Source of the DNA: Rhizobiales bacterium PAR1
GTDB lineage: Bacteria > Pseudomonadota > Alphaproteobacteria > Rhizobiales > Beijerinckiaceae
Reading direction: 5' to 3'
Assembly (NCBI GenBank): GCA_002256205.1
Contig: NKIW01000001.1
Span: 248,001 to 312,000 of the forward strand
DNA: 64,000 nt
Shown: piece after piece, positions 18,518 to 25,707 of the stretch
Layout: every line of letters starts with the position of its first letter
Numbering within the stretch: the stretch's first letter is position 1
The notes under the pieces: generated by a model
Told to the model about the DNA's origin: nothing
What the model saw: the letters and a program-made list of their open reading frames with translations, nothing else
Database searches by the model: none
Translations under genes and position numbers: made by a program

Positions 18518-21979
<3,462 letters not shown>

Positions 21980-22017
21980 GCCCGCACCTTCGCCATCATA
22001 CTCACTCCCTCACATCA

Positions 22018-22119
22018 TCAGATCAGCGGCCAGTTCCCGCTTACCCCTGTCAAGACCGCCATCATAACGAAAAATGCTCCGATCGAAGCCAGTTCGATCA
22101 TCTCTTCCACAGCCCGCAT
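22018..22119 (-). CDS. 33-residue single-pass membrane peptide under an SOS box (SidA-like candidate)
   Basis: A very short gene. ATG 22119 is preceded by GGAGG with a five-base gap. The peptide begins MRAVEEMIELASIG, continues through a hydrophobic stretch (about residues 10-26, AFFVMMAVLTGV) and ends SGNWPLI before TGA. A GAAC-N7-GAAC SOS box and a TTGACA -35 lie upstream. In Caulobacter crescentus the SOS-induced division inhibitor SidA, a ~29-residue inner-membrane peptide acting on FtsW/FtsN, is as I recall encoded beside dnaE. That synteny, the size, the charge pattern and the promoter make this a candidate homologue. Function is inferred. Confidence 0.7.
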   Translation of the reverse strand: MRAVEEMIELASIGAFFVMMAVLTGVSGNWPLI

Positions 22120-22161
22120 GACATCCTCCACAAGAAGTTACAGTACCGCGACAAGAAGTGT

Positions 22162-22200
22162 GTTCTTGTTTTGTTCTAACTGATATCCAAACGTTGTCAA
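22162..22200 (-). promoter_or_regulatory. LexA-controlled promoter (SOS box over the -10)
   Basis: On the minus strand TTGACA (22200-22195) is followed after 16 bases by TAGAAC (22178-22173). GAAC-AAAACAA-GAAC (22176-22162) overlaps that -10. GTTC-N7-GTTC is the known LexA site of alphaproteobacteria. The arrangement predicts tight repression that is released by DNA damage. Confidence 0.75.
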
Positions 22201-22219
22201 GCGGCATTTTGGGAGCGAT

Positions 22220-22444
22220 TCAGGAGGAAATGCGGGCGCGCCAGCGCCTAAAGGCTAAAATCGACCAGATCGCCTCGACAAGACCGAGCGGCCAGGCACC
22301 TTGCAGAAAGCCGTAAGCGGAACCGGCAAGGCAGGCAACGGCAAAGCCGAGTACATACAAGAGATGGCGGTCTTCCTGTGCGTAGGTGACGAGCATCACC
22401 GTAACCGCCGCAAGGCCGAAGAGCGTGAGTGGATCGAGACTCAC
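22220..22444 (-). CDS. Small membrane protein of the lolCD operon
   Basis: A 74-residue protein starting at GTG 22444, where GTGA overlaps the lolD stop, so translation is probably coupled to lolD. Two hydrophobic segments (about residues 6-20 and 28-48) are joined by [14 protein letters not shown] and followed by an amphipathic [20 protein letters not shown]. This resembles the small CBU_0592-type membrane proteins of unknown function. The overlap and the protein-like composition support a real gene. Its relation to lipoprotein sorting is unknown. Confidence 0.65.
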
Positions 22445-23124
22445 GGCAGGTCGACTACCCGCCCCTCTTTTAGCGTAATCCGGCGATCCATCCGCTGGGC
22501 GAGTTCGAGGTTATGCGTCGCCACCAGCGCCGCAAGGCCGGATTGTTTCACCAGTGCCGAGAGCGTCGCGAAGACATGCTCGCCGGTCACGGGGTCGAGG
22601 TTACCCGTCGGCTCGTCTGCCAAAAGGAGGCGCGGCGTATTGGCCACGGCGCGCGCGATCGCGACGCGCTGCTGCTCACCGCCCGAGAGTTCACCAGGGC
22701 GATGCTCGATGCGATGTGAAAGGCCGAGAAAGCCGAGAATTTCCGCCGCGCGCGCTTCTGCTTCCGGGACGGAAAGCCCGGCAATGCGCTGCGGCAGTAC
22801 CACGTTCTCCTTGGCTGAAAACTCCGGCAGGAGGTGATGGAACTGGTAGACAAAGCCGATATCGGTCCGTCGCAGCTTGGTCCGCGCGAGATCATCGAGC
22901 CCGGCCGTCGCGGTCTCGCCAATGAAAACCTCGCCGGTATCCGGGTGCTCGAGAAGCCCCGCGATATGCAGCAGCGTTGATTTGCCCGCCCCCGAGGGCG
23001 CAACCAGCGCGACCATCTCGCCGGGATTGAGTGTGAGATCGACGCCGGAAAGCACGGTGACGGTGTTCTCGCCCTGCGTATATGCACGGCAGACATTCGC
23101 GAGGTGGAGCGCTGGCACTGTCAT
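22441..23124 (-). CDS. lolD: Lipoprotein-releasing ABC transporter ATPase LolD
   Basis: LolD powers extraction of outer-membrane lipoproteins from the inner membrane. The 227 residues contain Walker A PSGAGKST, the Q-loop at [13 protein letters not shown] signature [14 protein letters not shown], Walker [13 protein letters not shown], and the H-loop in [12 protein letters not shown] 23124 ([11 protein letters not shown]) lies four bases after the lolC stop. Together with lolC it forms the usual alphaproteobacterial lol pair downstream of proS. Confidence 0.95.
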
Positions 23125-23128
23125 GATG

Positions 23129-24388
23129 TTACTCCGCCCGCAGCGCTTCGACAGGGTCAAGCTTGGCCGCGCGCCACGCGGGGTAAAGTGTCGCGAGGAG
23201 CGATAGCACCAGCGCCATTACCACAATGGCGATGACCTCCGAGGCCCGCACGTCGGACGGCAATCGCGAGAGGAAATAAAGCTCGGGCGGGAAAATCTGC
23301 GCGCCGGAAAAGTAGGAAACCACCTGCCTGAGGCTCTCGACGTTCCAGGCGATCACAAGACCGAGCAGGAAGCCAACGAAGGTGCCGCCAACACCAATGG
23401 CCGCGCCAGTGATGATAAAAATCGAGAGGATCGAGCCGCGTGTCGCGCCCATGGTACGCAGGATCGCGATGCCGCGCGCCTTGTCTTTGACCAGCATGGT
23501 AAGGCCGGAAATGATGTTCAGCGCGGCAACGAGGACGATCATGGTCAGGATGAGGAACATCACGTTACGCTCCACCTCCAGCGCACCGAAGAAGGTCCGG
23601 TTGCGGAAACGCCAGTCGGTGAGGCCGTGCGGTTTGCCGACCGCCTCGCGGATCAGCGGGGCGTAATCGTCCATCCGATCGGGATTATCGACAAAAACCT
23701 CGATCAGGGCCACCTGCCCTTCGCTGTCGAAATAAAGCTGCGCTTCTGCAAGCGGCATGAAGACGAAGCTCGCATCGAACTCGCTCATACCGACTTCGAA
23801 AAGTGCCGCAACCTCATAGGATTTCTGGCGCGGTGCCGAGCCGAACGGCGTCGAAGGGCCTTTGGGCGAGAGGAGCTTGATCTTGTCGCCGACACCAACC
23901 CCGAGATAACCGGCGAGCCGGCGTCCGATGGCGATTTTCTCCGAGCCGTCAAAGGCATCGAGGGTACCGTCGAGAATATTCTTGGAGACCGAGGTGAAGC
24001 GCTTGAGATCTGCCTCGCGCACACCGCGCACCAGCGCACCGCTGGTTGCCCCTTGCGAGGCCGCAAGCACCTGTCCCTCGACGATTGGCGCCGCGAGCTT
24101 CACGCCCTTGACCTTGCTGACGCGCTCCGAGATCGCCTCGTAATCCTTCAGGCTCTCGGCATAAGGCTGGATGAAAGCATGGCCGTTGACGCCAAGAATC
24201 TTGCCCATCAGCTCCTGACGGAAGCCATTCATCACCGCCATCACCACGATGAGCGTCGCGACACCCAGCATGATGCCAGTGAAGGAAAAGCCCGCAATGA
24301 CGGAAATGAAGCCGTCGCGGCGACGCGCGCGCAGATAGCGCCACGCAACGCCCCACTCATAGGAGCCGAAAAGCGACTTGATGCTCAC
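23129..24388 (-). CDS. lolC: Lipoprotein-releasing ABC transporter permease LolC/LolE
   Basis: The inner-membrane permease partner of LolD, 419 residues. There is an N-terminal membrane segment ([19 protein letters not shown]), a large periplasmic domain and three C-terminal membrane segments of the FtsX/MacB type ([20 protein letters not shown]). The start is a GTG at 24388 whose GTGA overlaps the proS stop, giving [19 protein letters not shown]. Only one permease gene is present, suggesting a homodimeric LolF-like transporter; whether it is nearer LolC or LolE cannot be told here. Confidence 0.92.
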
Positions 24389-25707
24389 GATGCAATCCGC
24401 TCCACAGCATCCGCCGGCGAAAGCGTGACGCGCTCGCCCGTTGCGCGGCGCTTGAGTTCGACCTTGCCGTCTGCAAGCCCCTTGGGGCCGACGATGATCT
24501 GCCACGGTAGACCGATGAGATCGGCGGTCGCGAACTTCCCACCCGGACGCTCGTCGGTGTCATCGATCAGGCAGGAGAGACCACGCGCTTCGAGCGCGGC
24601 TTCAAGCTCGCCCGACACGCGATCCGTCGCGCTGTCACCGGGTTTGAGGTTGAGGATGGCGACATCGAACGGCGCAATCGCGTCCGGCCAGATGATACCG
24701 GCCTCGTCATGGCTCGCCTCAATGATCGCCGGCACAAGGCGGCTTGGTCCGATGCCGTAGGAGCCCATATGCACCGGCACATCCTTGCCATCCGGCCCGG
24801 TCACCACCGCGCGCATCGGTTCGGAATACTTGGTGCCGAAATAGAAGATGTGCCCGACCTCAATGCCGCGCGCAGAGACGCGGGAGGCTTCCGGAACGCC
24901 GTTGAAGGCGGCTTCGTCATGCATTTCCTCGGTGGCCGCATAGAGCGAGGTCCACTTGTCGACGATCTTGGCGAGGTCTTCGCGGGAATCGAAGTTGGTA
25001 TCCGGCCCCGGCACCGCAAAATCGAGGTAATCCTTGTGGCAGAAAACACCGCTTTCGCCGGTCGAAGCGAGAATGATGAACTCGTGCGAGAGATCGCCAC
25101 CAATCGGACCGGTATCCGCCCGCATCGGGATCGCCTTCAGCCCCATGCGCTCGAAGGTGCGCAGATAGGCCACGAACATGCGGTTATAGGCGTGTCGTGC
25201 ACCGGCCTGATCGATATCGAAGGAATAAGCATCCTTCATCAGGAATTCGCGGGAGCGCATCGTGCCGAAGCGCGGACGGATTTCGTCGCGGAACTTCCAT
25301 TGCAGATGATAGAGGTTTAGCGGCAGGCTCTTGTATGAGCGCACATAGCCGCGGAAAATCTCGGTGATCATTTCCTCGTTGGTCGGCCCGAACAGCATCT
25401 CGCGCTCATGGCGATCCGTGATGCGCAGCATTTCCTTGCCATAGGCGTCGTAGCGGCCCGATTCGCGCCACAGATCGGCAGACTGGATCGTCGGCATGAG
25501 AAGTTCGATCGCACCCGAACGGTTCTGCTCTTCACGGATAATGCCGCAAATCTTGTTGAGCACCCGGAGGCCAAACGGCAACCAGGCATAAATGCCCGCC
25601 GACTCCTGACGGATCAGCCCGGCCCGCAGCGCCAGACGATGCGAAATAATCTCCGCCTCTTTCGGCGTTTCACGCAAAATCGGCAGGAAATATCTGGAAA
25701 GGCGCAT
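24385..25707 (-). CDS. proS: Prolyl-tRNA synthetase (editing-domain-less type)
   Basis: Charges tRNA-Pro. The 440 residues match the short alphaproteobacterial ProS, which lacks the ~180-residue editing insertion of the E. coli enzyme. The N-terminus [20 protein letters not shown], class II motif 1 around [16 protein letters not shown], motif 2 [21 protein letters not shown] (shortened) and motif 3 [13 protein letters not shown] are in order. A C-terminal anticodon-binding domain ends VERIAS. ATG 25707 is the family start. It overlaps lolC by four bases and heads the proS-lolC-lolD unit. Confidence 0.95.

Follow-up and report, generated by a model that had tools for sequence, protein, structure and literature searches.

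A gene for a SidA-like, predicted membrane peptide behind a LexA-type box before dnaE in Rhabdaerophilum and other Alphaproteobacteria

Introduction

What is encoded by a 33-codon frame that lies between a box of the SOS type and dnaE, and does its product belong with the division inhibitor SidA of Caulobacter? The question is raised by a stretch of 64,000 nucleotides from Rhizobiales bacterium PAR1 (contig NKIW01000001.1, positions 248,001 to 312,000; the window), for which an initial annotation had proposed a division checkpoint gene of the SidA type. SidA is described in PMC4211646 as a 29-amino-acid, SOS-induced peptide of the inner membrane that acts on FtsW and FtsN, and sidA is given as a LexA target in PMC12700426. 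Below, we show that the frame is a real gene and present the evidence that places its predicted product in a wider SidA-like family.

Results and Discussion

A conserved gene of 33 codons

The frame (33 codons plus stop) translates to MRAVEEMIELASIGAFFVMMAVLTGVSGNWPLI. Among 41 genomes searched, the 33-residue peptide was found in 15 of the 17 Rhabdaerophilum genomes, including that of the window; this genus (family Rhabdaerophilaceae, order Hyphomicrobiales) includes Rhabdaerophilum calidifontis. The two genomes that lack the peptide are 83% and 78% complete, and neither gave DnaE1. The other 14 copies share 48–82% amino-acid identity with the window peptide. Conservation of the frame among close relatives, proposed in the initial annotation as a check, is evident: all 15 congeneric copies are stop-free and all retain the same surroundings, with TTGAC[AGT] beginning 58–83 nt and an exact GAAC-N7-GAAC box beginning 33–58 nt 5' of the aligned start, and dnaE directly 3' of the gene. 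Single-difference codons, counted over all pairs of the 15 copies (pairs that are not independent), gave a synonymous to non-synonymous ratio of 591:481 in the peptide frame, as opposed to 274:956 and 255:923 in the two alternative frames, i.e., the synonymous excess is confined to the coding frame among the three compared.

This conservation bears directly on the possibility of a chance open reading frame. A length of 33 codons is short, and exact boxes are no commoner in this genome than a control pattern, both of which would fit such a frame, but the 15 intact copies at this level of identity and the excess of synonymous differences in the peptide frame only rule it out, and we give it practically no weight. 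We conclude that the 33 codons constitute a genuine gene. A non-coding RNA was likewise rejected, as an Rfam scan of positions 21900–22460 gave no family at the gathering score. Searches of Pfam and NCBIfam with the 15 genus members returned nothing credible (best NCBIfam match 0.0048, best Pfam match 0.11).

Related peptides upstream of dnaE

dnaE was located in 118 of 120 genomes of the order, and the upstream DNA was read in 110 of these. A profile built from the genus only was used, without regard to position, to search 2744 six-frame segments from 108 other genomes of the order, and its best eight matches were short peptides just 5' of dnaE (E 6.8e-5 to 0.027). Iterating the profile extended the set to 43 segments with E below 0.02, one of which, in G110, lies on the strand opposite to dnaE. 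With a wider profile (A4), a related single-helix peptide was detected upstream of dnaE in 59 of the 110 genomes, a count that is in-sample because A4 was built partly from the same sequences; the genus-only scan, and the search of Caulobacter and the held-out profiles described below, are out-of-sample tests. Within 160 bp upstream of the 59 copies, an exact box is present in 50 and a one-mismatch box in 7 more. The comparison of the region before dnaE in Hyphomicrobiales that the initial annotation had suggested revealed a related short frame together with an exact box in 50 of 110 genomes. The family motif is [DE]-x-x-A-[LF]-x-[SA]-[LVI]-x-x-F-x6-W, outside of which the sequences are very divergent.

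Six of the 51 genomes of the order without a detected copy have a box before dnaE, and in five of these six there is a short, hydrophobic frame not picked up by the profile. Three genomes of one family (G118, G087 and G045; loci L132, L134 and L136) have boxes of either orientation ahead of dnaE, together with profile-negative, cysteine-bearing, hydrophobic short frames that are possibly a fast-evolving branch. In G054 (L070), two exact boxes precede dnaE and the scan found no short hydrophobic frame; this may represent SOS control without a peptide, or loss of the peptide.

A class-wide search of 289 genomes yielded matches at E up to 1 in 105 genomes, most of them due to chance, and 20 loci were opened. 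The best three matches beyond the genus (G145, E 5e-4; G310, 0.004; G270, 0.011) each correspond to a short peptide preceded by an exact box, and the same holds for five weaker opened matches (G341, G413, G150, G264 and G144). In 8 of the 20 opened loci the box lies 41–89 bp 5' of the match, and seven of these eight lead into dnaE; in G310, the contig is too short to show whether it does. The other 12 opened loci (L149, L150, L155, L160, L168–L170, L176 and L178–L181) lack a box there and were taken as chance matches. Beyond the order, dnaE was found in 109 genomes, of which 68 were counted by place; the earlier positives G270, G341 and G144 were excluded from this count. A box within 450 bp before dnaE was present in 11 of the 68; all 11 also have a short hydrophobic frame, which matches the profile in 8, and the other 57 had neither box nor profile match. 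A related peptide precedes dnaE in a minority of genomes from other orders.

Relationship to SidA of Caulobacter

The C. vibrioides genome in our set (G597) was assigned by 100% identity of PopZ. Of 41 Caulobacter genomes, 40 yielded dnaE; 30 of these loci were read, and in every one the peptide lies directly before the gene. In G597 this peptide has 29 residues and is SidA (NCBIfam NF033228, 72.4 bits with a cut-off of 35); two further Caulobacter peptides also score above the cut-off. The vicinity of sidA and dnaE, as stated in the initial annotation, is thus confirmed in C. vibrioides.

A profile of the order that contains no Caulobacter sequence (A2) ranked the 30 SidA segments at positions 1–30 of 555, with E from 1.1e-5 to 0.15, while the best segment other than SidA had E 3.1. 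With the same profile, C. vibrioides SidA scored above all 4919 scoring shuffles (5000 made). Alignment of A2 with the SidA set (A3) by hhalign gave a probability of 92 and E 8e-7 for a single pair, and the genus profile (A1) gave a probability of 64 with A3. In a held-out test, each member was sought among 5182 segments with a profile whose training set held only members less than 40% identical to it. These profiles recovered 39 of 42 members at E<0.05, including the window peptide at E 0.01 and SidA of C. vibrioides at E 6.9e-4. Both peptides have about 30 residues and a single hydrophobic stretch (best 19-residue Kyte–Doolittle mean 2.01 in the window peptide, 2.08 in C. vibrioides SidA), and they share the core acidic-x-x-x-L-x-S-[VI]-x-x-F, a LexA-type box upstream and the place directly before dnaE. 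Kinship of the window peptide to SidA through intermediates is well supported by these comparisons. Judged by its sequence, the peptide belongs to a broader family of SidA-like peptides and lies outside the NCBI equivalog NF033228; it combines kinship beyond chance with one hydrophobic stretch, a LexA-type box and a place before dnaE.

Several observations weigh against a SidA-type reading. The window peptide, with its 33 residues and a C-terminal tail peculiar to the genus (WPL[IV]/LPLV), gives no match to NF033228 at E up to 10 and does not keep the WMMC core of SidA. C. vibrioides SidA obtains 0.7 bits with the genus-only profile, and 1653 of the 4993 shuffles that scored do at least as well; among Caulobacter segments, the best E given by this profile is 0.036. 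A one-step profile proof from the genus to SidA therefore failed, and as the genus profile alone misses SidA, the link needs the intermediates. The held-out profiles missed three of the 42 members (E 0.16, 0.52 and 410). The window peptide departs from the family motif at A (E9) and W (L23), two columns with weights of 0.75 each, and a conserved one-sided helix face was not significant (conservation moment at 100 degrees, p 0.12). In Caulobacter itself, an exact box within 160 nt is found in 10 of the 30 copies, G597 among them; 19 more have a one-mismatch box, and one, whose contig begins close by, has neither. No copy was detected upstream of dnaE in 51 of the 110 genomes of the order, so many of them do without the gene, carry it elsewhere or have something in its place. 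Finally, FtsW is present in the window's genome but scores 333.4 bits, just below the curated cut-off of 337.5, as it also does in 7 of 10 matching named control genomes. The SidA type proposed in the initial annotation is supported by size, SOS box, place before dnaE and held-out kinship; the missing NF033228 match and the failure of the genus-only profile set limits to it.

Most Caulobacter copies (L182–L211) have two near-boxes with one mismatch each, 17–18 bases apart, in place of the single exact box. These pairs may be a composite LexA site.

The box as a plausible LexA operator

On its own, the exact box is weak evidence. The window contains 3 exact boxes where 1.76 are expected, and the genome as a whole has no excess (106 exact boxes, 107 for the reversed pattern). 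Chance nevertheless does not account for the box before the peptide, which is conserved jointly with TTGAC, the frame and the place in all 15 congeneric copies. GTTC-N7-GTTC is the LexA box of C. crescentus according to PMC9578287, and in the window's genome lexA (C8:122070-122774, 173.8 bits) has two overlapping boxes just upstream (C8:122829-122854).

Apart from lexA, 11 box loci were read, which were picked by eye, mostly as AT-rich, among 100 listed of the 106 boxes. Five of them lie before repair genes, one lies before the gene for a PA0069-type radical SAM protein, and the other five (L225, L235, L243, L245 and L247) have no recognisable repair gene behind the box. The same box form precedes recA (582 bits) and dinB (466 bits), whose products score over their cut-offs, uvrA (635 bits) and pcrA/uvrD (557 bits), both under the cut-off because the locus stops within their frames, and an ImuA-like gene (29 bits against a cut-off of 150), about 3 kb beyond which there is a second DnaE-family gene. 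The orientation of the box relative to the gene varies among these loci. As there is no genome-wide excess, the operator claim depends on the genes behind the eye-picked boxes; as the same form precedes lexA, recA, uvrA, uvrD/pcrA, dinB and the ImuA-like gene, the box before the peptide is plausible as a LexA operator.

At L235 (C8:110099-110113) in the window's genome, the box lies 93 bases 5' of a frame of 333 amino acids that matches nothing in Pfam or NCBIfam and may be an SOS gene that has escaped recognition.

Copies away from dnaE

The peptide frame ends 38 bases before the ATG of dnaE (position 21979) on the same strand, and this order recurs in all 15 congeners and in most relatives. 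Such an arrangement would fit a leader peptide, or an upstream frame by which dnaE expression is adjusted, and with so short a gap co-transcription is likely in the window's genome, so the SOS box might also serve to induce dnaE, the replicase gene, with the peptide as a passenger or a minor product. Copies found elsewhere in the genome argue against both. The displaced-copy search covered 48 of the 51 peptide-negative genomes of the order (G017, G086 and G031 were left out) and gave 29 matches, of which 10 were opened. Four of these have an exact box and are strong copies away from the usual place (E up to 1.6e-5). In G103 and G065, other frames separate the copy from dnaE, which lies approximately 1.6 and 2.5 kb downstream, and the exact box is kept; in G089 and G120, it is on a different contig from dnaE and has an overlapping pair of exact boxes. 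Moreover, the family gene of G110 (L064) is inverted with respect to dnaE, and two boxes precede its core by 223 and 244 bases in the gene's own direction, further from the peptide than in other genomes.

As displaced copies keep their own box, a role in leading dnaE is unlikely to be the main one, and we rejected the leader peptide on the displaced and inverted copies. Conservation of the amino-acid sequence and the lack of an Rfam family also disagree with a leader, which we regard as highly improbable. Induction of dnaE as the purpose of the box is very unlikely too, since the box accompanies the peptide and not dnaE in the four genomes where the two are separated, and the peptide frame is under amino-acid constraint.

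The paired boxes of G089 (L320) and G120 (L321; match at 1501 in each) overlap at a distance of 11 bases, like those before lexA in the window's genome.

Proposed function

The locus probably encodes a SidA-type, SOS-induced inhibitor of cell division in the inner membrane, a reading in which the mechanism is carried over from SidA by sequence kinship. LexA bound at 22162–22176 would cover the −10 element and silence the promoter. Upon DNA damage, RecA filaments would promote cleavage of LexA and release the promoter, after which the 33-residue, single-helix peptide would enter the inner membrane. There, conserved residues of the helix may hold the septal synthase FtsW/FtsI/FtsN inactive until repair is done, although we can only guess at the residues that make the contact. 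Both LexA and FtsW are encoded in the window's genome, in keeping with this reading. AlphaFold 3 models that are not of high confidence put SidA on transmembrane segment 7 of FtsW, as given in PMC13396833.

Alternatively, the family could consist of SOS-induced peptides that act outside the divisome, for example by depolarising the membrane or slowing growth like TisB or DinQ, with only Caulobacter SidA specialised on FtsW. TisB is a short hydrophobic SOS peptide of other function, and DinQ is a further example (PMC3567139). The great divergence beyond the motif and the absence of the WMMC core from the window peptide would agree with such a role. However, the family motif and the place close to dnaE are shared with SidA, which suggests one ancestral function, and we consider a non-divisome role rather unlikely.

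Division inhibition by a small membrane protein would have several known parallels, which we compared with the window peptide by description only. DidA of C. crescentus is also a small membrane inhibitor of the FtsW/I/N complex, but it is SOS-independent and controlled by DriD, as described in PMC4211646. YneA of Bacillus, SosA of Staphylococcus and ChiZ of Mycobacterium are damage-induced small membrane division inhibitors for which PMC13396833 gives FtsW as the proposed target; unlike the window peptide, YneA has a LysM domain and SosA an extended helix, and we claim no homology. SulA of Escherichia coli is a LexA-controlled division inhibitor as well (PMC4211646, PMC13396833), but according to PMC6851548 it targets FtsZ and is not membrane-bound.

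Organisation of the locus

The features of the locus are listed in Table 1. The TTGACA, the box overlapping TAGAAC, the GGAGG, the 33 codons and the distance to dnaE all occur where the initial annotation had placed them, and 16 bases separate TTGACA from TAGAAC. The upstream ABC ATPase gene, which we take to be lolD-like, adjoins a MacB_PCD/FtsX permease gene at 23129–24505. Between the lolD-like gene and the peptide, on the same strand (−), there is a GTG frame of 74 codons (22220–22444) with hydrophobic stretches and no Pfam match; a similar frame occupies the same place in the congener G001.

Table 1. Features of the peptide locus, with positions counted from the first nucleotide of the window.
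Feature	Position	Strand	Evidence
dnaE, DNA polymerase III alpha, 1153 aa	18518..21979	−	TIGR00594, 1166.1 bits
SidA-like peptide gene, 33 codons and stop, single hydrophobic stretch	22018..22119	−	
Shine-Dalgarno GGAGG, 5 bases 5' of ATG	22125..22129	−	
LexA-type operator GAACAAAACAAGAAC, exact GAAC-N7-GAAC (GTTC-N7-GTTC on +)	22162..22176	−	predicted from sequence
−10-like TAGAAC, overlapped by SOS-type box	22173..22178	−	
−35-like TTGACA	22195..22200	−	sequence check
ABC ATPase, upstream neighbour	22441..23160	−	Pfam PF00005, 112.2 bits

Implications for the SidA family

In the available text of the literature surveyed, which did not include the 2011 description of SidA by Modell, neither SidA nor any other SOS division inhibitor is reported by name from alphaproteobacteria other than Caulobacter. 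The kind of gene is already known; the member in the window and the distribution of the family appear to be new. The combination of a place before dnaE, an operator and a motif pinpoints a candidate gene in many genomes.

On balance, we lean towards the view that SidA represents an ancestral SOS division checkpoint across a large part of the Alphaproteobacteria, one that was long kept in a lolD-peptide-dnaE locus and stayed unnamed beyond Caulobacter as it has about 30 codons and diverges fast. Many Hyphomicrobiales show polar growth; in this order, the brake would then work on a division machine that is organised differently. If this is true, SidA would turn from a protein of one genus, with an NCBIfam model of 29 residues, into a diverse set of transmembrane peptides that are probably directed at FtsW, and the conserved residues of the family (acidic, A, S/A, F and W) suggest targets for mutations that would map the contact.
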